This document shows, in pieces, positions 5,476 to 17,741 of a stretch of 64,000 nt of DNA. The translations under genes were made by a program, and so were the position numbers. Numbering within the stretch: the first letter of the stretch is position 1; every line of letters begins with the position of its first letter. The DNA is from SAR116 cluster alpha proteobacterium HIMB100 (GTDB lineage: Bacteria > Pseudomonadota > Alphaproteobacteria > Puniceispirillales > Puniceispirillaceae), in NCBI GenBank assembly GCA_000238815.2, contig AFXB01000010.1, positions 372,001-436,000 of the forward strand, in the 5' to 3' direction. Below the pieces are notes generated by a model. The model saw nothing but the letters and a program-made list of their open reading frames with translations, had not been told where the DNA came from and did no database searches.

Positions 5476-6114
5476 TTAACCGGGCAGGTGACTGACCAAC
5501 CCAACTCCTGCTGCGGTCATCTGCTGTGCGGCAGCAGCCATAGACCCATCCAGATCAATCGCCCGGCAGGCCGGCAGAACAACCTGAACCTCATAACCCA
5601 GCCTGGCTGCATCAAGAGCGGAATAGGCCACACAATAGTCAGTGGCCAGCCCGGCCATCACCACTTTCCTGACCCCGCGATCCTGCAGATAGCCATGCAG
5701 ACCAGTAACGGTGACCTTGTCATTTTCAAAAAAAGCTGAATAGCTGTCGACAGCGGCACGAAAGCCTTTGCGGATGATCATCTGTGCTGCATCAATATGC
5801 AGCTCTGGATGAAAAGCCGCCCCATCTGTGCCCTGAATACAGTGATCCGGCCACAATGTCTGCGGCCCATAACTGACCTCAATCGTCTCAAATGGGGAAC
5901 GCCCATCATGGCGCGATGCAAAGCTGGTATGGCCAGCCGGATGCCAGTCCTGTGTGGCAATCACCATATTTGCCCTTTTGATCATCTGATTTATAGGGCT
6001 GACCACCTGATCCCCCTCAGCAACCGCCAGCTGGCCGCCGGGGCAGAAATCATTTTGTACATCAATCACGATAAGGGCTGTGGATATAGCCGCTAGATCA
6101 ACGTCATGTGCCAT
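5476..6114 (-). CDS. pncA: Nicotinamidase
   Basis: Hydrolyses nicotinamide to nicotinate for NAD salvage. The isochorismatase-fold catalytic triad is visible as Asp18 (in VIDVQNDF), Lys116 (IRKG) and Cys161 ([13 protein letters not shown]); Asp56 and His58 in QDWHPAGH are metal ligands. At 212 residues it is standard PncA length. The ATG overlaps the last 11 bases of the thymidine kinase gene, which argues for translational coupling and a common transcript from the tdk promoter. The overlap places a NAD salvage gene directly with a deoxynucleoside salvage gene. Confidence 0.95.
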
Positions 6115-6694
6115 GATGCAATCCTGTCAGTTCTTTCCAATGGACCCGGCATAAAGAGACATATTTATCATTTCCGCCAATCTCAATCTGCGCCCCATCT
6201 GTCATGGTCTGGCCTGTCTCTGTCTGGCGGATGACCATTGTGGCTTTTCGCCCGCAATGACAAATTGTCCTGATTTCGCGCAGATTATCTGCAATCGCCA
6301 GCAGCACAGCCGAGCCCGGAAACAGCTGGCCTCTGAAATCCGTACGCAGACCATAACACATCACCGGAATATCCAGCTGGTCAACAACAGACGCCAGCTG
6401 CCAGACCTGTTCAGCAGATAAAAACTGCGCTTCATCGACCAAAACACAAGCCAGCGGCAACCGGTTATGTTCCTGTTGGATCAGCTGGCTGACATCTGTG
6501 GTAGGATCAAAGGTCAGCGCATCTGCCTGCAGTCCGATACGAGAGCCGATTTGTCCCTGGCCCGCACGGTCATCAAGCGCGGCTGTCAACAATAATGTAT
6601 GCATGCCCCGCTCACGATAATTATGAGAGGCCTGCAACAAAATAGTCGATTTGCCGGCATTCATTGCCGAATAGGAAAAATAGAGCTTTGCCAC
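6104..6694 (-). CDS. tdk: Thymidine kinase (TK1-like, type II)
   Basis: Phosphorylates thymidine or deoxyuridine with ATP to dTMP or dUMP. The P-loop SAMNAGKST sits at residues 9-17, followed by the Walker-B-like VDEAQFL around 90 and the structural zinc site CHCGRKA with a later Cys-Arg-Val-His, as in type II thymidine kinases. Length (196) is typical. It is the first gene of a minus-strand unit with pncA and is divergent from upp across a 175-bp intergenic region, so both salvage genes probably have promoters there. Confidence 0.96.
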
Positions 6695-6869: not shown

Positions 6870-7520
6870 ATGTCACAGCCTGCCTCACCTGAACAAATGC
6901 TGACCGTTCTTGATCATCCGCTGATCCGGACCAAGATGACTGTCTTACGCGACAAACATACATCGCCGCCAGAATTCCGGCGTACCCTGCATGAAATAGC
7001 CGGGCTAATGAGCATGGCGACCTTTGCACATCTTCGCACTGACCCGGTCAATGTCGATACACCTCTTGAGACCGCAGAAGGTGCACGCCTGCAGCAGCCT
7101 GTACCCTGTCTGTTATCTATTCTTCGTGCGGGAAACGGAATGGTTGATGCCTTGTCTGCGTTATTACCTGAGGCAGCTATCGGACATCTGGGGCTACAGC
7201 GCGATCCTGAAACCCATAAGCCGATTTATTATTATGAAAAACTGCCGTCTGACATAGATAAACGACAGGTCGTCATCACTGATCCGATGCTGGCCACAGG
7301 TGGCTCAGCCATTATGGCGGCAGATCATTTGAAGGCAAAAGGCTGTCTTGATCTGGTATTTGTTTGTCTTATCTCTGCCCCAGAAGGTGTAGCAACATTC
7401 CACGCCGCACATCCTGACATTCCGGTCATTACTGCTGCACTTGACCGTCAATTAGACCAAAATTGTTATATTTTGCCTGGTCTTGGTGACGCGGGCGACC
7501 GGATTTATAACACGATCTGA
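6870..7520 (+). CDS. upp: Uracil phosphoribosyltransferase
   Basis: Makes UMP from uracil and PRPP, the entry point for base salvage. The PRPP loop VVITDPMLATGGSA lies around residues 131-144; the N-terminal LRDKHTSPPEFRR and the C-terminal GLGDAGDRIYNT uracil-binding segment are canonical. 216 residues is normal length. It is the only plus-strand gene in the nucleotide block and converges with cdd, whose stop is only 6 bp beyond its own. It would consume uracil released by the nucleoside hydrolase encoded nearby. Confidence 0.97.
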   Translation: MSQPASPEQMLTVLDHPLIRTKMTVLRDKHTSPPEFRRTLHEIAGLMSMATFAHLRTDPVNVDTPLETAEGARLQQPVPCLLSILRAGNGMVDALSALLPEAAIGHLGLQRDPETHKPIYYYEKLPSDIDKRQVVITDPMLATGGSAIMAADHLKAKGCLDLVFVCLISAPEGVATFHAAHPDIPVITAALDRQLDQNCYILPGLGDAGDRIYNTI

Positions 7521-7526
7521 TATCGT

Positions 7527-7922
7527 CTAGCGTTTCAGATTATCAGGTCCGAAACTATGTGGCAGCAACTCGTCTAAGGTGAAGCTCTGACGCAACCCTG
7601 TCTCATCACAGACCAAAATCTGTGTTTCTGCTGTGCCAAATTCACGGATTTTCTGACGACACCCGCCGCATGGCGTACATAATATTTCGCCCCTGCCCGC
7701 CACAGCAATTTTCTGGATTCGCTGCCCGCCTGACATAATCAGGGCTGAAATGGCACTTGCTTCTGCGCAACAGCCCTGCGGATAGGCAGCATTTTCAATA
7801 TTCGCGCCGGTGTGAACAGCGCCATGTTCATCCAGTATCGCGGCACCAACAGAAAAACCACTATACGGGGAATAGGCTTTGTCCATCGCCGCAATGGCGG
7901 CCCTGATCAGCATCTCAGACAT
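7527..7922 (-). CDS. cdd: Cytidine deaminase
   Basis: Zinc enzyme converting cytidine or deoxycytidine to uridine or deoxyuridine. With the chosen ATG the protein is 131 residues; zinc ligands and catalytic Glu are Cys52-Ala-Glu54 and Cys85-x-x-Cys88 (PCGGC). An upstream in-frame start at 7955 would add eleven residues inside the preceding permease, but GAGAGGTG directly precedes the ATG at 7922 and the family starts near here. It lies 4 bp after the last permease gene and is the final gene of the nucleoside import operon, fitting intracellular processing of imported cytidine. Confidence 0.95.
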   Translation of the reverse strand: MSEMLIRAAIAAMDKAYSPYSGFSVGAAILDEHGAVHTGANIENAAYPQGCCAEASAISALIMSGGQRIQKIAVAGRGEILCTPCGGCRQKIREFGTAETQILVCDETGLRQSFTLDELLPHSFGPDNLKR

Positions 7923-7926
7923 CGCT

Positions 7927-8901
7927 TCACCTCTCTTTAATATAAGGCACGCCAATCGCCCGTGGCGGTGTAGCTTTTCCGATGAACCCGGCCAGCAAAA
8001 TCACCGTCAACAGATAAGGCAACGCCAGAATCAAATCCGTCGGTATCTGGCCCATAAACGGAACCTCTACCCCCTGAAGCCGCGCCGCAAGCGCATCCAT
8101 AAACCCAAACATAAGACAGGCCAGCAATGCCGGAACAGGCCGCCAATTCCCAAAAATCAGCGCCGCAAGCGCAATATAGCCCTTACCGGCTGTCATCTCG
8201 CGGATAAAGCCTGCCCCATGTGCAGTGGACAGATATGCCCCGGCAATCCCGCAGAGCAGGCCCGCAATCATCACAGCCTGAAAGCGTAGAGCCGAAACGC
8301 TCATCCCTGCACTATCCACAGCCTCTGGTTTTTCCCCTACTGCCCGTAGCCGCAATCCAAAAGTGGTTTTGAAAATCACGTAGCCTGTCAGCACAACAGA
8401 CACCAGTGCCACCCAAACCAGCAGATTATGTCCGGATATAATCTCTTTATAAATCGTACCCAGAACCGGAATATGCCCTGCCTGTTCGGCAAACGGCAGG
8501 GTGATGTCGCGGAACCGCTCTGCCTTTCCCAGAAGCGGCGTCTGTCCACCCATGGAAAACAGCGCAATCCCCAGCGTGACCGTCAGCCCAGAAGCCAGAA
8601 TATTGATCGCCAGACCAGAGATGACCTGATTGCCTTTATGGGTGATACAGGCAAAGCCATGAATAAGGCTGAGGCAGACAGACACGGCAATCGCCCCTGC
8701 AAGCCCGGCAAAAGGTGAGCCGGTGAGCGCGGCAACGCTCGCCGCGGCAAAGGCAGACATCAGCATTTTGCCTTCTAAAGAGATATCAATAATACCCGAC
8801 CGTTCAGAGAATAATCCGGCCATGGCACATAAAATCAGCGGTGTGGCCACCCGTAAAGTCGCATCAAGGGTCAACACAAATTGCAGCCAGAGGTCAGCCA
8901 T
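7927..8901 (-). CDS. Nucleoside ABC transporter permease (YufQ/NupQ type)
   Basis: A 324-residue inner-membrane permease with eight or more hydrophobic helices, of the branched-chain amino acid/ribose (BPD_transp_2) class. The segment RSGIIDISLEGKMLM near residues 33-47 is the typical coupling-region signature of BMP-dependent nucleoside importers, and the C-terminal ATPPRAIGVPY tail is common to this subfamily. Its start overlaps the stop of the preceding permease by one base (8901). Together with that permease it forms the heterodimeric channel. Confidence 0.93.
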   Translation of the reverse strand: MADLWLQFVLTLDATLRVATPLILCAMAGLFSERSGIIDISLEGKMLMSAFAAASVAALTGSPFAGLAGAIAVSVCLSLIHGFACITHKGNQVISGLAINILASGLTVTLGIALFSMGGQTPLLGKAERFRDITLPFAEQAGHIPVLGTIYKEIISGHNLLVWVALVSVVLTGYVIFKTTFGLRLRAVGEKPEAVDSAGMSVSALRFQAVMIAGLLCGIAGAYLSTAHGAGFIREMTAGKGYIALAALIFGNWRPVPALLACLMFGFMDALAARLQGVEVPFMGQIPTDLILALPYLLTVILLAGFIGKATPPRAIGVPYIKER

Positions 8902-10010
8902 TATCCTGCCTCCCGCGGGCTGAAAAACCGGAAATACAGCCGCGCCACTGTAGGCGTAAACAAATACGCCAGCGCCCCTGAAAACAGAATAATCAGCCCC
9001 TGAATCATCAACACCATCTCGCGTGTAATGGTCTGAAATTCAAAATCCAGCTCTGCCCCACCCTGATATAAGGCGCCAAATAACAGGCTGGCCAAAACAA
9101 TACCGACCGGATGATTGCGGCCCATCAATGCCACTGCAATGCCGGTGAAGCCATAGCCAGAGGTGAAGTTTAAAATCACCCGCTGCTGGACCCCCAGAAT
9201 TTCGTTCAGAGACATCAGCCCGGCTAAACCACCGGAAATTGCCATCGCGATCATAATAATCTTCGCCGGATCATGACCCGCATAAACCGCTGCCCGCTCA
9301 CTGTGACCAGTGGCCCGGATGATATAGCCCAGCTTGGTTCGCCAGATCAGATACCACACCCCAAAACAAGCCAGTACCGCCACCACAAAGGACAAATTCA
9401 ACGGTGATTTGGCAACAGAAAAGCCAGCCATCTGCAGTAATTCGTAAACTTTTGGCAGATTCACACCTTCAGCAAAACTGCGCGTTTCCGGCGACATCTG
9501 GCCAGGAGCCATCAACATCCCGGCCAGCAGCCAGACCATGATTGATGAAGCAACAAAATTGAACATAATGGTGGTAATCACAATATGACTGCCGCGCCTG
9601 GCCTGAAGCCAGCCAGGGATGACCCCCCACAACGCCCCGAATGCAGCAGCCGCGGGTACCGCCAGAAGTAACACAGCAACAGGCGGCAACACAGCATCCA
9701 GCATCAGCACCACCAGCCCAACCCCAAGACCGCCGATCATGGCTTGTCCTTCACCGCCGATATTGAACAACATGGCATGAAACGCCACCGCAACAGCAAG
9801 GCCGGTAAAAATAAAATTTGTGGTGTAAAACAGGGTATAGCCCAGCGCCCCTTTGTACACAAAAGCGCCCTTAATCATCACCCCCATCGCCACAAACGGA
9901 TTTTCACCGATAATGGCAATGATGATCCCGGCCACGGCCAATGCGGCCAGCAAATTCAATACAGGCAGCAAGCCGACATCTATCCAGCGGGGCAGCGGTC
10001 TTATGCTCAT
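8901..10010 (-). CDS. Nucleoside ABC transporter permease (YufP/NupP type)
   Basis: A 369-residue polytopic membrane protein, partner of the downstream permease. The N-terminal MSIRPLPRWIDVGLLPVLN leads into about nine predicted helices; NIGGEGQAMIGGLG near residues 83-96 is the conserved segment of this permease family. It begins 2 bp after the ATPase stop, so the three membrane-complex genes are effectively continuous and probably translationally coupled. Confidence 0.93.
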   Translation of the reverse strand: MSIRPLPRWIDVGLLPVLNLLAALAVAGIIIAIIGENPFVAMGVMIKGAFVYKGALGYTLFYTTNFIFTGLAVAVAFHAMLFNIGGEGQAMIGGLGVGLVVLMLDAVLPPVAVLLLAVPAAAAFGALWGVIPGWLQARRGSHIVITTIMFNFVASSIMVWLLAGMLMAPGQMSPETRSFAEGVNLPKVYELLQMAGFSVAKSPLNLSFVVAVLACFGVWYLIWRTKLGYIIRATGHSERAAVYAGHDPAKIIMIAMAISGGLAGLMSLNEILGVQQRVILNFTSGYGFTGIAVALMGRNHPVGIVLASLLFGALYQGGAELDFEFQTITREMVLMIQGLIILFSGALAYLFTPTVARLYFRFFSPREAG

Positions 10011-10012
10011 CT

Positions 10013-11602
10013 TCAGCGGGCCTTTCCTGTCTGTTCAGGCGGGGTGTCCACACCCGCCATCATCAGGCCAATTTGCTGGATATCTGTATCAGCGCGTCTC
10101 ACGATCCCCATATTACGTCCCTCATTCATGACCATAATCCGGTCAGACAGGCTCATAATTTCATCCAGTTCAACAGAAACAAGAATAACAGCACAGCCCT
10201 GATCCCGCAGCGCCAGAAGCTGTTTGTGAATAAATTCAATCGCGCCAATATCCACACCCCGTGTTGGCTGACCAATAAGCAGAATATCTGGCTGAGAAGA
10301 CAGCTCACGGGCAAGCACAATCTTTTGCTGATTGCCCCCGGAAAATAAATTACTTTTCAGCTTCGGATTTGACGGCCGGATATCATAATCAGCCATCAGA
10401 CGCTGGCAATGCTGCTCCATCTGTTGTGGTGAAAGGCTGATCTGGCTGCCCCCCATGAGGTCTGCATACTCATAGCCCAGAACAGCAGATTCAGCAGCCG
10501 AAAAAGGCAAGACCAGCCCAACAGCATGTCGATCTTCAGGAACATGCGCCAGACCATGAGACTTCACCTCAGACGGTGAGGCAGGCTGATCAGCAGTAAT
10601 CTGTCTGCCCCCAAGCTGAATGGACCCAGAAGCCACCGGTCGGATCCCGGCCAACACGTCAAGCAATTCAGACTGGCCGTTCCCCGAAACACCTGCGATC
10701 CCCAAAATTTCACCCTGATGAACCGCAAAGCTGAGGTCACGCACATGCTGAACCCCAGATGCCCCTGTCACGCTCAGATGCTCTGCTGTCAGGACAGCGT
10801 GTCCAGCCTCAGCTGCTGCATAACCCACATCAAGCAAAACCGGACGGCCAACCATTAGTTCAGCCAGCTGCTGCGGAGTAGTATCTTCAGTTCTGAGATG
10901 ATCAACCATCTCGCCTGAACGCATCACCGAGACAAAATCTGTTACCGCCATAATTTCCTTCAGCTTGTGGGTGATCAGCAAAACCGTTACCCCCTGCTGC
11001 TGGAGGGTCCGCAATATATCAAACAGCTGCTCGGTTTCCTGAGGGGTCAATACGCCGGTTGGTTCATCCAGAATTAACACCCGGGCCCCACGATATAAGG
11101 CCTTCAGGATTTCAACACGTTGCTGCAAACCAACAGGCAAATCCTGCACAACAGCCGACAAATCCACACTCAGCCCATATTGATCAGCAATCTTTTGTAA
11201 TGAGGCTTTGGCCTGCTGCTGACCCGCATTCAGGTCAAATCCGCCCTCATGACCAAGAATGATATTTTCAAGAACTGTAAAATTCGGCACCAGCATGAAA
11301 TGCTGATGCACCATGCCAATACCAGCAGCGATCGCATCAGCAGAACTGCGCAGCTTTACCGGCTGTCCGGCAATCGACACCTCACCACTGTCAGCGGTGT
11401 AAAACCCATATAAAATGGATACTAACGTTGATTTTCCGGCCCCGTTTTCACCAACAATACCGTGAATTGTACCCGGCCGGACAGACAGGCTCACATTATT
11501 ATTCGCCTGTACTGCACCAAAATTTTTTGAAATATTTTGTAAAGAAATAGCAAGAGGCGATGGATTATCGCCTCTTGCTTGTGCATGCATATTGGTCGAC
11601 AT
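10013..11602 (-). CDS. Nucleoside ABC transporter double ATPase (YufO/NupO type)
   Basis: A 529-residue protein with two tandem ABC ATPase domains, as in RbsA/MglA-like importers. Domain 1 has Walker A GENGAGKST near residue 53 and Walker B VLILDEPTG near 175. Domain 2 has a degenerate Walker A (GVSGNGQSE, near 305) but an intact signature (FSGGNQQK) and Walker-B-like region. Only one competent ATP site is therefore expected, which is normal for this class. It lies 8 bp downstream of the binding protein gene. Substrate (nucleosides) is inferred from its neighbours and the BMP protein. Confidence 0.94.
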   Translation of the reverse strand: MSTNMHAQARGDNPSPLAISLQNISKNFGAVQANNNVSLSVRPGTIHGIVGENGAGKSTLVSILYGFYTADSGEVSIAGQPVKLRSSADAIAAGIGMVHQHFMLVPNFTVLENIILGHEGGFDLNAGQQQAKASLQKIADQYGLSVDLSAVVQDLPVGLQQRVEILKALYRGARVLILDEPTGVLTPQETEQLFDILRTLQQQGVTVLLITHKLKEIMAVTDFVSVMRSGEMVDHLRTEDTTPQQLAELMVGRPVLLDVGYAAAEAGHAVLTAEHLSVTGASGVQHVRDLSFAVHQGEILGIAGVSGNGQSELLDVLAGIRPVASGSIQLGGRQITADQPASPSEVKSHGLAHVPEDRHAVGLVLPFSAAESAVLGYEYADLMGGSQISLSPQQMEQHCQRLMADYDIRPSNPKLKSNLFSGGNQQKIVLARELSSQPDILLIGQPTRGVDIGAIEFIHKQLLALRDQGCAVILVSVELDEIMSLSDRIMVMNEGRNMGIVRRADTDIQQIGLMMAGVDTPPEQTGKAR

Positions 11603-11610
11603 TTCGTGCC

Positions 11611-12621
11611 TTAATATGGGCAGTTTGAATCGCTCTCATAATTATGAACAACAACTTTGCCAGACAGGATATCACTGCGGGCCTGTTCAACAGCTGATTT
11701 AATTTCAGCTGTAATCAGCGAAGCGTTATTCTCGTCAATTGCCCAGTCGACACCGCCTTCAGCGACACCCAGGACTTTGATGCCTGAGGAGAATGACCCA
11801 CCCATCGCATCTTTAAAGGTTTCATAAGCAGCGACATCAACACGCTTCAGCATAGACGTCAGGACTGAGCCAGGGGCCATGCCATTCTGGTTTGAATCGA
11901 CACCAATTGCCAGCTTGCCTGCATCAGCTGCGGCCTGAATCACGCCAACACCTGTCCCGCCAGCCGCGTGATAGACCACATCAGCCCCGCGATCAATCTG
12001 GCTTTTGGCCAGTTCAGCACCTTTACCCGGATCATTCCAGGCAGACGGGGTTGTTCCGGTCATATTCTGATAGATATCAGCAGCACCGCTGACCGATTTC
12101 ACGCCGCCAACATAACCGCAAGCAAATTTTCGGATCAAAGGGATATCCATGCCTCCGACAAAGCCGACTTTGTTGGTCTTGCTGGCCAGGGCCGCGGCAA
12201 CACCGACAAGATAGCTGCCTTCATGTTCTTTAAACACATATTGGCGCAGATTTGGCGCATCCAGCCAGCCGACATCAATAATCGAGAATTTCTTGTCCGG
12301 ATATTCCACTGCAACTTTTGAAATCGCATCTGCCTGGGCAAAGCCCACGCCCAGAATAATGGTGGCACCACGTTCTGCCATCCGCCGCATGGCCTGTTCA
12401 CGCTGGGTTTCATTGGTGACTTCAAATTCCATCACCTCGACACCGGTTTCATCGGTGAATTTCTTCACCCCGTTCCACACCCCTTCATTGAAGGATTTGT
12501 CGAACTTACCGCCCATATCATAAATAACAGCTGGCTTAAACTCACCTGCTGTCACAGGGCCTGTAAGCGCAACTGCCATTGCTGCCAGACCGGCAAAGGC
12601 TGCTTTTTTTAAAAGTTTCAT
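11611..12621 (-). CDS. BMP-family nucleoside-binding protein of ABC importer
   Basis: A 336-residue periplasmic binding protein with a classical signal peptide (MKLLKKAAFAGLAAMAVALT, likely cleaved after Ala25). GGKFDKSFNEG near residues 37-47 is the hallmark of the BMP/PnrA/Med family, which bind purine or pyrimidine nucleosides. No lipobox cysteine is present, so it should be soluble in the periplasm. It is the first transporter gene, 14 bp after the oxygenase gene. The nucleoside hydrolase, ribokinase and cdd around it support a nucleoside ligand. Confidence 0.94.
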   Translation of the reverse strand: MKLLKKAAFAGLAAMAVALTGPVTAGEFKPAVIYDMGGKFDKSFNEGVWNGVKKFTDETGVEVMEFEVTNETQREQAMRRMAERGATIILGVGFAQADAISKVAVEYPDKKFSIIDVGWLDAPNLRQYVFKEHEGSYLVGVAAALASKTNKVGFVGGMDIPLIRKFACGYVGGVKSVSGAADIYQNMTGTTPSAWNDPGKGAELAKSQIDRGADVVYHAAGGTGVGVIQAAADAGKLAIGVDSNQNGMAPGSVLTSMLKRVDVAAYETFKDAMGGSFSSGIKVLGVAEGGVDWAIDENNASLITAEIKSAVEQARSDILSGKVVVHNYESDSNCPY

Positions 12622-12635
12622 AGTCGATACTCCCT

Positions 12636-13472
12636 TTATGATTTCAGCCCAATTTGTCTGAGCCGTTCCTGCAGAAACTGTTCTGCTGTAAAATCATGCC
12701 TCAGCTTTACATCCGGTCGCGGATGTAAAAACATGGGCATAGAATAGCGCGAAAGATTCAAATTGACATCAGGATTAACCACCCGATGTGTGGTTGACGG
12801 AAAATACCCGCCTGTCGCCAGCGATAACATATCCCCGTTATTGATTGTAATCATTCCCGGATCACACGGTACATCATGCCAGTTGCCCTGTTTATCGCGC
12901 GCCTGCAGACCAGGTTGTGATCCCGCCAAAAGAAGGGTGATTAGGTTGATATCCTCATGTGCAGCCGCCCGAATCGCCGCCGCATCCTCATCCTGACCGA
13001 CAGGCGGATAATGTAATATCCTCAACAGGCTCTGCTGGCTGTCAGCCATCATCTGTTCCAAAGGTGCGCTGAGGCTGGCCTGTAATTCTTTTGGCATTTG
13101 CTGATCCAACCAGCCCAGCAATTCAACGCCGATTGAGGTCAGGTCAGCATAGAGCTGGCGGGTAAAGGCGTTTAACCCGTCTGGTACCCGCCCCCAGGGA
13201 TAGACATGGTAAAATTCTTTTAAATCCTTTTTGGCAGCGTCTTTTGCATGTTCAGATTTAAACGGGAAATAGCCATCCTGTTTTTCATAATCCCGCAGAT
13301 AATCGGATTTGTCCTCACTGGCAAAAAACCCGCCCCACAGATCATATGCCTCATCGATACGTTCCGGTGAAATCGGGTGATTGGCCAGCACAGCAAAGCC
13401 GGTTTCCTGTAAAGACCGGGCAAGGCTTTGCGGCGCATCAGACGCCTTATAATCCACTGTCTCAATCTGCAT
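12636..13472 (-). CDS. Isopenicillin-N-synthase-like 2-oxoglutarate/Fe(II) oxygenase
   Basis: A 278-residue non-heme iron oxygenase of the DIOX_N/2OG-FeII_Oxy family. The iron triad is complete: His172 and Asp174 (AAHEDINLITLL) and His229 (STTHRVVNP); Arg242 and Ser244 (SRYSMP) are the 2-oxoglutarate clamp. The DIOX_N half covers residues 1-110. It sits between a nucleoside hydrolase and a BMP nucleoside importer in one minus-strand run, so the context points to oxidation of a nucleoside, base or related compound. Fungal thymine-7-hydroxylase belongs to this same structural family, which makes a pyrimidine substrate reasonable, but nothing in the sequence fixes the substrate. Confidence 0.88.
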   Translation of the reverse strand: MQIETVDYKASDAPQSLARSLQETGFAVLANHPISPERIDEAYDLWGGFFASEDKSDYLRDYEKQDGYFPFKSEHAKDAAKKDLKEFYHVYPWGRVPDGLNAFTRQLYADLTSIGVELLGWLDQQMPKELQASLSAPLEQMMADSQQSLLRILHYPPVGQDEDAAAIRAAAHEDINLITLLLAGSQPGLQARDKQGNWHDVPCDPGMITINNGDMLSLATGGYFPSTTHRVVNPDVNLNLSRYSMPMFLHPRPDVKLRHDFTAEQFLQERLRQIGLKS

Positions 13473-13527: not shown

Positions 13528-14487
13528 TCAGCGCATAACATCCATCTGGCGAATCTGTCTCATTTTGTCAGCTTGACCGCAAATGTCCAGAAACCTTGCT
13601 TTGATTTTTGCGGCATCAGCTGCAACAGCTACCCGGACGCCCCGCCGATTTAAGCTGTCATCAGGTACCGTCCTCCCGATCTGCTCGTCCGAGCAAACAA
13701 CAGATAAAGGCGTTGTCTTGTAGCTAAACAGATCATTATCCGTAATCGCCACCAGTGCCGATGGATCATGCATCAGGCAAACATGCCGGCCGATCACTGA
13801 ATGATAGAATTTGATATAAAAACCAGAGATATCATGCAAAAATCCGCCTATCTCCGGGGCGGTATGGCGCAAGGCCCTGAAATAGGCATCATCACAATCA
13901 ATTGTCTGGGTTACATCCAGGCCAATCAGATCAATGTCCCAATCAGCCGCAAACACAGCATCTGCGGCATGCGGATCATTCCAGATATTGGCTTCGGCAT
14001 AGGCAGACACATTGCCAGGCGCCCAGACCGCCCCGCCCATAATGACCAACTTTTTCACATGCTGCACAATTTCCGGGTCATGCCGCAGGACAGACGCGAT
14101 ATTGCTAAGAGGTCCAACCGGACAGAGAATCACCTCTCCACTATGCGCGCGGCATATCTCAGACAAATAGGTATCTGTGGTTTTGTCCAGAGGCACGCCT
14201 TCTGGCGTCTGTGCAGGCAAGTCGCCAAACCCTTCTTCACCATGCACATAGTGCGAAGGCGGGTTCAGTGGCTGGGTCAGGGGACAGGACGCTCCTTCGA
14301 CCACATCAAGCGGGTAGTTTGCCTGTTCTGAGAGCAGCAACGCATTTCGAGTCGCCTGCCAGGAAAAAACATTACCAAAAACAGTGGTCAGGCCGAGCAC
14401 ATCAAGGCCCTGATGCGCAAACGCATAATGGATCGCCATCGCATCATCTATGCCGGGATCTGTGTCGATAATCAGTTTCTGTTTCAT
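13528..14487 (-). CDS. Inosine-uridine nucleoside hydrolase family protein
   Basis: Hydrolyses ribonucleosides to base plus ribose. The calcium-binding DTDPGIDDA motif is at residues 8-16, the GPLSNIA segment near 125 and the C-terminal MHDPSALVAI with the conserved His-Asp near 240. Length (319) is standard for IunH enzymes. It lies 15 bp downstream of the ribokinase gene and upstream of the oxygenase and importer. The base released would feed upp and the ribose would feed the adjacent kinase. Purine versus pyrimidine preference cannot be read from the sequence. Confidence 0.94.
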   Translation of the reverse strand: MKQKLIIDTDPGIDDAMAIHYAFAHQGLDVLGLTTVFGNVFSWQATRNALLLSEQANYPLDVVEGASCPLTQPLNPPSHYVHGEEGFGDLPAQTPEGVPLDKTTDTYLSEICRAHSGEVILCPVGPLSNIASVLRHDPEIVQHVKKLVIMGGAVWAPGNVSAYAEANIWNDPHAADAVFAADWDIDLIGLDVTQTIDCDDAYFRALRHTAPEIGGFLHDISGFYIKFYHSVIGRHVCLMHDPSALVAITDNDLFSYKTTPLSVVCSDEQIGRTVPDDSLNRRGVRVAVAADAAKIKARFLDICGQADKMRQIRQMDVMR

Positions 14488-17213: not shown

Positions 17214-17741
17214 TCAGCCCTTGGCCCGCTCAATAGCAGCCTTGATCATCTCTGCCGCCTTTTCCGGGCCTTCCCAGCCCTGAACCTTGACCCATTTGGT
17301 CTTTTCCAAATCTTTATAATGTTCAAAGAAATGCGCAATCTGGTCTAAAATAATCGGCTGCAGATCAGCTGTTGACTTCACATCTTTATAGTAAGGATGC
17401 AGCTTGTCCACAGGCACACATAACAGCTTTTCATCTATACCACTTTCATCTTCCATCATCAGAACACCAATCGGACGCGCGGCGATCACACAGCCATGCA
17501 CAATCGGCATCGGGGTCAGCACACAGGCATCAATCGGGTCACCATCATCTGACAATGTATGCGGCACAAACCCGTAATTCACAGGATAATGCATTGGCGT
17601 ATGCAAAAACCGGTCAACCAGAAGGGCGCCTGACTCCTTGTCCAGCTCGTATTTTACCGGAGCTGAGCCAGCCGGAATTTCAATAGCAACATTAATTTCT
17701 TCAGGCGGGTTTTTCCCAACAGTCAGTTTATCCAAATTCAT
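17214..17741 (-). CDS. ppa: Inorganic pyrophosphatase (family I)
   Basis: A 175-residue soluble pyrophosphatase with the signature DGDPIDACVL near residues 66-75 and the conserved YELDKESGALLVDRFL substrate-binding segment. It pulls phosphoribosyltransferase reactions (PyrE, Upp) forward by removing PPi, which fits its place at the head of the pyrimidine run. AGGA lies 9 bp ahead of the ATG. The 105-bp gap upstream is shared with a divergent monooxygenase gene and must hold promoters for both. Confidence 0.97.
   Translation of the reverse strand: MNLDKLTVGKNPPEEINVAIEIPAGSAPVKYELDKESGALLVDRFLHTPMHYPVNYGFVPHTLSDDGDPIDACVLTPMPIVHGCVIAARPIGVLMMEDESGIDEKLLCVPVDKLHPYYKDVKSTADLQPIILDQIAHFFEHYKDLEKTKWVKVQGWEGPEKAAEMIKAAIERAKG

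Follow-up and report, generated by a model that had tools for sequence, protein, structure and literature searches.

A putative Fe(II)/2-oxoglutarate oxygenase in a nucleoside-utilisation operon of the SAR116 bacterium HIMB100, and its possible substrates

The operon and its oxygenase gene

The window analysed here, a 64,000-nucleotide stretch of DNA from the SAR116 cluster alphaproteobacterium HIMB100, contains a run of 11 genes on the minus strand in the order ppa-pyrC-pyrE-rbsK-iunH-OXY-bmp-ATPase-permease-permease-cdd, where OXY stands for a putative Fe(II)/2-oxoglutarate (2OG) oxygenase. The genes pncA and tdk come after the run on the same strand, and upp lies on the opposite strand. Names for several neighbours that lie outside the operon come from reading the sequence by eye, with a profile check for part of them. 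The features are as follows.

17214–17741, minus strand: ppa, inorganic pyrophosphatase, first gene of the run; named from sequence, conserved in locus L076
16158–17201, minus strand: pyrC, dihydroorotase; named from sequence, conserved in L076
15434–16150, minus strand: pyrE, orotate phosphoribosyltransferase; named from sequence, conserved in L076 and L077
14503–15375, minus strand: rbsK, PfkB-family ribokinase; below the NCBIfam cut-off
13528–14487, minus strand: iunH, inosine-uridine preferring nucleoside hydrolase (PF01156); nearest NCBIfam model RihC, below cut-off
12636–13472, minus strand: OXY, putative Fe(II)/2OG oxygenase with DIOX_N and 2OG-FeII_Oxy domains; 278 aa, open reading frame intact
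11611–12621, minus strand: bmp, BMP/PnrA-like substrate-binding protein of the importer (PF02608)
10013–11602, minus strand: ABC importer ATPase with two nucleotide-binding domains, from Pfam and NCBIfam profiles
8901–10010, minus strand: ABC importer permease 1, from the open reading frame and its place in the conserved operon
7927–8901, minus strand: ABC importer permease 2, on the same grounds
7527–7955, minus strand: cdd, cytidine deaminase; over the NCBIfam cut-off
6870–7520, plus strand: upp, uracil phosphoribosyltransferase; convergent, kept beside the operon in relatives
6104–6694, minus strand: tdk, thymidine kinase; kept beside the operon in relatives

An earlier reading from the sequence alone had described OXY as flanked by a nucleoside hydrolase and a BMP importer in a tight run with ribokinase, cdd, pyrE and pyrC. 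The neighbours are as described, with intergenic gaps of -29 to +58 bp from ppa to cdd (55 bp between iunH and OXY, 14 bp between OXY and bmp). Importer, hydrolase, ribokinase and deaminase are all present in this single run, as in a nucleoside-utilisation operon. An Rfam scan of the window revealed no riboswitch or other RNA element. Terminators inside the operon were also sought; a consensus scan gave 19 candidates against a mean of 11.8 in shuffled sequence, and these were set aside because they occurred on both strands and mostly within genes.

The OXY protein matches PF03171 and PF14226 with 68.9 and 46 bits (gathering thresholds 23 and 27.3), and no NCBIfam model matched it. Alignment with fungal thymine-7-hydroxylase (T7H) places the iron site at H172, D174 and H229 and the 2OG site at R242/S244 and R151/Y155. 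The residues H172, D174, H229, R242 and S244 are invariant among 63 bacterial and 30 viral homologues, and E86, R151, Y155, I175 and F248 are likewise unvarying among the 63. The predicted structure (pLDDT 89) matches folds of the isopenicillin N synthase (IPNS) type. The iron triad, the RxS motif, the profiles and the predicted fold together place OXY in the Fe(II)/2OG oxygenase superfamily, and the earlier description of an intact IPNS-like oxygenase carrying His172, Asp174, His229 and Arg242 is borne out. Within this known superfamily OXY belongs to an uncharacterised subfamily, on whose function a search of the open literature found no report. The GC content of the gene (0.50) resembles that of its neighbours (0.48–0.56) and thus gives no hint of a recent insertion from a foreign source. 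The genome encodes another PF03171 oxygenase (G000:C2, L218:4427-5419), which was rejected as a second copy; it sits in an unrelated TRAP-transporter/dehydrogenase cluster.

Distribution of the oxygenase and its neighbours

In the family to which the window belongs, 61 genomes were compared. OXY is present in 42 and an iunH of the operon type in 39, all of which carry OXY; three genomes have OXY without iunH and 19 have neither gene (Fisher p = 5e-13 for co-occurrence over the 61 genomes, uncorrected for relatedness). In the OXY-only genomes G010 and G031 the gene stands at the start of a contig, so that the contig end may account for the lack of an upstream iunH. In G008, the 7-kb contig that carries OXY has another BMP protein on it and lacks an iunH upstream of OXY. 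Locus L075 (2327-12026) has retained the rbsK-iunH-OXY core beside a BMP paralogue of about 32% identity, and survival of the core through this exchange of importer suggests a closer tie of OXY with iunH than with any single importer. A different BMP protein also accompanies OXY at L084 (the BMP proteins of L075 and L084 show about 29–32% identity).

Operons of the ppa-to-cdd type are found again in four or more further families of Alphaproteobacteria, and the same gene order has been found in f97, f117, f23 (L198), Amylibacter (L140), Pacificispira (L128) and Vin_25 (L095). Undibacterium, of the Betaproteobacteria, has the reordered arrangement rbsK-bmp-ATPase-permease-permease-iunH-OXY-cdd, and in the tree its OXY falls in a different clade, grouping with gamma- and betaproteobacterial sequences. 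The well-supported branches of this tree require at least two gains of the iunH/BMP operon context. In Alteromonadaceae OXY stands instead behind a uridine kinase gene and a nucleoside transporter gene (udk-nupC-OXY), both of which score over curated cut-offs. The same arrangement was met in seven genomes of an even phylum-wide draw, and in G209, an alphaproteobacterium of family f19, a NupC-family gene lies 5 bp ahead of OXY. Recurrence across numerous genomes and separate lineages argues that the arrangement is more than chance. The sequence-only reading had linked OXY to nucleoside uptake and hydrolysis and would have given up this link had no neighbourhood been conserved across genomes; such a neighbourhood does exist, and the link holds both in the co-occurrence of the two genes (39 of 39 iunH genomes) and in its return in independent lineages.

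Three further loci were seen in the course of these comparisons. At L100, the start of OXY is overlapped by a putative dCMP deaminase gene, identified by eye. At L091:439-1658, from a gammaproteobacterial MAG, OXY is followed by what appears by eye to be the C-terminal remnant of a NupC. At L164:5170-14550 (G304), another IPNS-fold oxygenase (25% identity) has as neighbours a BMP importer, a further iunH and a ring-opening amidohydrolase of the AtzD/TrzD type; this is a second nucleoside- or base-linked oxygenase cluster.

Homologues also occur in viruses. OXY matches PHROG 30382, a viral family of unknown function, over its full length (E 1.7e-98), and judged by sequence the two are one family. 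A scan of IMG/VR returned 33 OXY loci (examples among L220-L252 are L220:8875-9726, L221:10001-10831 and L248:10001-10813), many of them on contigs of 100–177 kb. The 30 viral sequences compared keep all catalytic residues as well as I175, N176, F248 and H250. Many viral branches fall outside the cellular ones in a tree rooted with 3OOX-like sequences; support is weak at the root of this tree and at several of its joins. A gene for the thymidylate synthase ThyX adjoins OXY in two distantly placed viral contigs (L220:8875-10403, with a 4-bp overlap, and L247:9043-10795, at 43 bp). A set of related viral contigs has NAMPT, Prs and DNA ligase genes near OXY.

Candidate substrates

The substrate of OXY is probably a nucleoside or a nucleobase; this is our own judgement and was not computed. 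More specifically, oxidation of a nucleoside rather than a free base, at or about the 2' position, is favoured tentatively, at somewhat under an even chance in our estimation, which takes in the less specific parts of this proposal. The partner of OXY differs between lineages, being either IunH or Udk, which favours oxidation of a nucleoside to a ribonucleoside (from a 2'-deoxy or 2'-O-methyl form) over hydroxylation of thymine. Both contexts pair an importer with a consumer of ribonucleosides, and the simplest explanation would be that OXY makes a ribonucleoside from something that neither consumer accepts well. The gene contexts, the enzyme inventory of the genome and the precedent of FJS (a bacterial oxygenase of free nucleosides, discussed below) together favour 2' oxidation; T7H-like oxidation of a base and action on some unrelated substrate are still in contention. 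No residues indicating 2' chemistry were found in OXY. The active-site residues mapped from T7H are identical whether the context is BMP, NupC or other, which argues for a single chemistry throughout the family without naming which.

With regard to the enzyme inventory, neither deoC nor a PYNP_C thymidine phosphorylase was found in the window's genome, which for PNP_UDP_1 gave a single weak match, of 194 aa; IunH is therefore probably the main nucleoside-cleaving enzyme there. Among tested genomes, which are not phylogenetically independent, deoC was found in 0 of 12 with nucleoside-linked OXY vs 3 of 6 with lone OXY. This contrast is suggestive only, since none of the 61 family genomes has deoC, whether OXY is present or not, and its absence may be the default of the lineage.

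In the favoured pathway, the BMP-type ABC importer would bring nucleosides into the cell, and OXY, with O2, 2OG and Fe(II), would oxidise a nucleoside that is poorly usable by IunH, Cdd or Udk. The most likely site would be the 2' position, where either a pyrimidine 2'-deoxynucleoside would be hydroxylated or a 2'-O-methyl group would be removed by oxidation, and the product would be an ordinary ribonucleoside. IunH would then cleave this to base and ribose, the latter trapped by ribokinase, while Cdd would convert cytidine to uridine and Upp would salvage uracil. In the Alteromonadaceae version, NupC would import the nucleoside and Udk would phosphorylate it. The viral copies, two of them next to ThyX, speak against 2' oxidation in that they are not obviously a fit to the destruction of deoxynucleosides. 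The narrower proposal of a bacterial and viral IPNS-fold family that converts pyrimidine 2'-deoxynucleosides to ribonucleosides, by which bacteria without deoC or thymidine phosphorylase would gain an oxidative route to DNA-derived nucleosides by way of a ribonucleoside hydrolase or uridine kinase, is doubtful.

Bacterial recycling of RNA and DNA by nucleoside import usually proceeds without oxygen chemistry. If the favoured explanation is true, an oxidative step in the use of dissolved nucleosides has been overlooked across SAR116, other Proteobacteria and large viral contigs. A function would also be provided for PHROG 30382 and for 3ON7, a structure unannotated since 2010.

A substrate that is neither nucleoside nor base, with OXY in an amino-acid, sugar or stress role and its place in the operon due to co-regulation or chance, is rather unlikely, though less so than the other alternatives. 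Outside the nucleoside-linked lineages, most homologues, including those of Vibrio, Shewanella, Chromobacterium and Tistrella, have no nucleoside gene near OXY. In two Neomarinimicrobiota contigs (L099, 7723-10840, and L105) OXY overlaps or abuts genes named by eye as HPPD and homogentisate dioxygenase. At L066 (7711-10807) it lies inside an isc operon as hscA-OXY-fdx, at L073 (6145-7350) it adjoins fdx, and suf operons are close to it at L094, L096 and L100. These lone copies and tyrosine-catabolic or Fe-S neighbours leave room for a different substrate, as do related oxygenases of about 26% identity in unrelated clusters of Rhizobium and Pantoea (plasmid hits), which were themselves rejected as orthologues, their clusters being different. 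Against such a role, nucleoside contexts recur in several lineages, with the genes in varying order and the transporter drawn from two unrelated families, and no operon-type iunH occurs without OXY in the window's family.

The T7H-like explanation, which was that of the sequence-only reading, is unlikely. Here IunH would split 5-methyluridine to free thymine, or would release a different methylated base, OXY would oxidise the 5-methyl group towards 5-carboxyuracil, and a decarboxylase encoded elsewhere would yield uracil for Upp. Among solved structures the nearest named enzyme with an assayed activity is T7H (profile E 7e-27, fold E 1.3e-21), in agreement with the fold relationship stated earlier, and the presence of upp beside the operon and of ThyX in the two viral contigs would also suit this pathway. 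Six active-site residues of T7H (Arg190, Tyr194, Glu122, Phe292, Arg286 and Ser288) align with R151, Y155, E86, F248, R242 and S244 of OXY. In T7H, Arg190 contacts 2OG and substrate, Phe292 and Tyr217 sandwich the base, and Tyr217 may be replaced by Phe or Trp, Ile not being reported there (PMC4787775). OXY has the equivalents of the arginine and of Phe292, but only half of the sandwich, Tyr217 being Ile175 in every homologue examined; in addition, Asn294 is replaced by His250 and Asn87 by Gln65. The conserved R, E and F are also present in an ancestral ethylene-forming enzyme (9OVH) and so are not diagnostic of T7H, with which OXY shares only 20–23% identity. Uridine kinase, the partner in Alteromonadaceae, acts on nucleosides. 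The operon contains no dedicated iso-orotate decarboxylase, and of two Amidohydro_2 proteins considered for this role in the genome, one belongs to a cluster of the aromatic-degradation type and the second is unlinked; since neither lies in the operon, the idea gains no support. Of the bacterial nucleoside or base hydroxylase first proposed, the link to nucleoside genes is thus supported, while its thymine version has been weakened by the Tyr217 replacement, the Udk partner and the lack of a decarboxylase in the operon.

AlkB/FTO-like removal, ahead of hydrolysis, of an N- or C-methyl group from the base of a ribonucleoside such as 5-methylcytidine or 5-methyluridine is quite improbable: it shares the operon logic of 2' oxidation, the adjacency of Cdd and a fold like that of T7H, which oxidises C5 methyls, but no sequence feature separates base-methyl from 2' chemistry and nothing specific to AlkB was found.

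Comparison with known systems

The nearest solved structure to OXY is 3ON7 (SO_2589 of Shewanella oneidensis), a structural-genomics entry for a putative oxygenase, followed by 3OOX (CC_0200), both of unassigned function; by fold, T7H ranks behind only these two. SO_2589 shares 50% full-length identity, a TM-score of about 0.9 and all mapped active-site residues with OXY, but its gene stands alone in Shewanella whereas OXY is part of a nucleoside operon. The literature searched contained no functional paper on SO_2589. The T7H of Neurospora crassa (5C3P-5C3S) resembles OXY in its IPNS fold, its 2OG site and the equivalents of Arg190, Glu122 and Phe292; its substrate is a free pyrimidine base. 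It differs in the low identity and in the replacements at Tyr217, Asn294 and Asn87 given above. An N-terminal SENAK...KDLKE motif, common to the OXY family and its 3OOX-like sister, is absent from T7H. Copies of PHROG 30382 sit among phage genes, in contrast to the nucleoside operon around OXY in the window.

The reaction favoured for OXY would be that of the pyrimidine-deoxynucleoside 2'-dioxygenase of Rhodotorula (EC 1.14.11.3), which converts deoxyuridine to uridine or thymidine to ribothymidine; this enzyme is fungal, and the likeness drawn here is one of reaction. FJS, a bacterial 2OG oxygenase of the PhyH family that acts on free nucleosides as a 2'-O-methylnucleoside demethylase, has been reported (December 2025; PMC12709175). 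FJS and PHYHD1 resemble the enzyme proposed here as 2OG/Fe(II) oxygenases of free nucleosides that feed salvage, and for FJS a pyrimidine-auxotrophic E. coli strain deleted for pyrF has been complemented on 2'-O-methylcytidine (PMC12709175). Both belong to PF05721, and the Pfam scan of OXY returned only PF03171 and PF14226, which places OXY outside that family. The novelty first claimed for a bacterial nucleoside hydroxylase is therefore reduced, FJS already acting on free nucleosides (PMC12709175), but it persists in so far as FJS comes from a different Pfam family.
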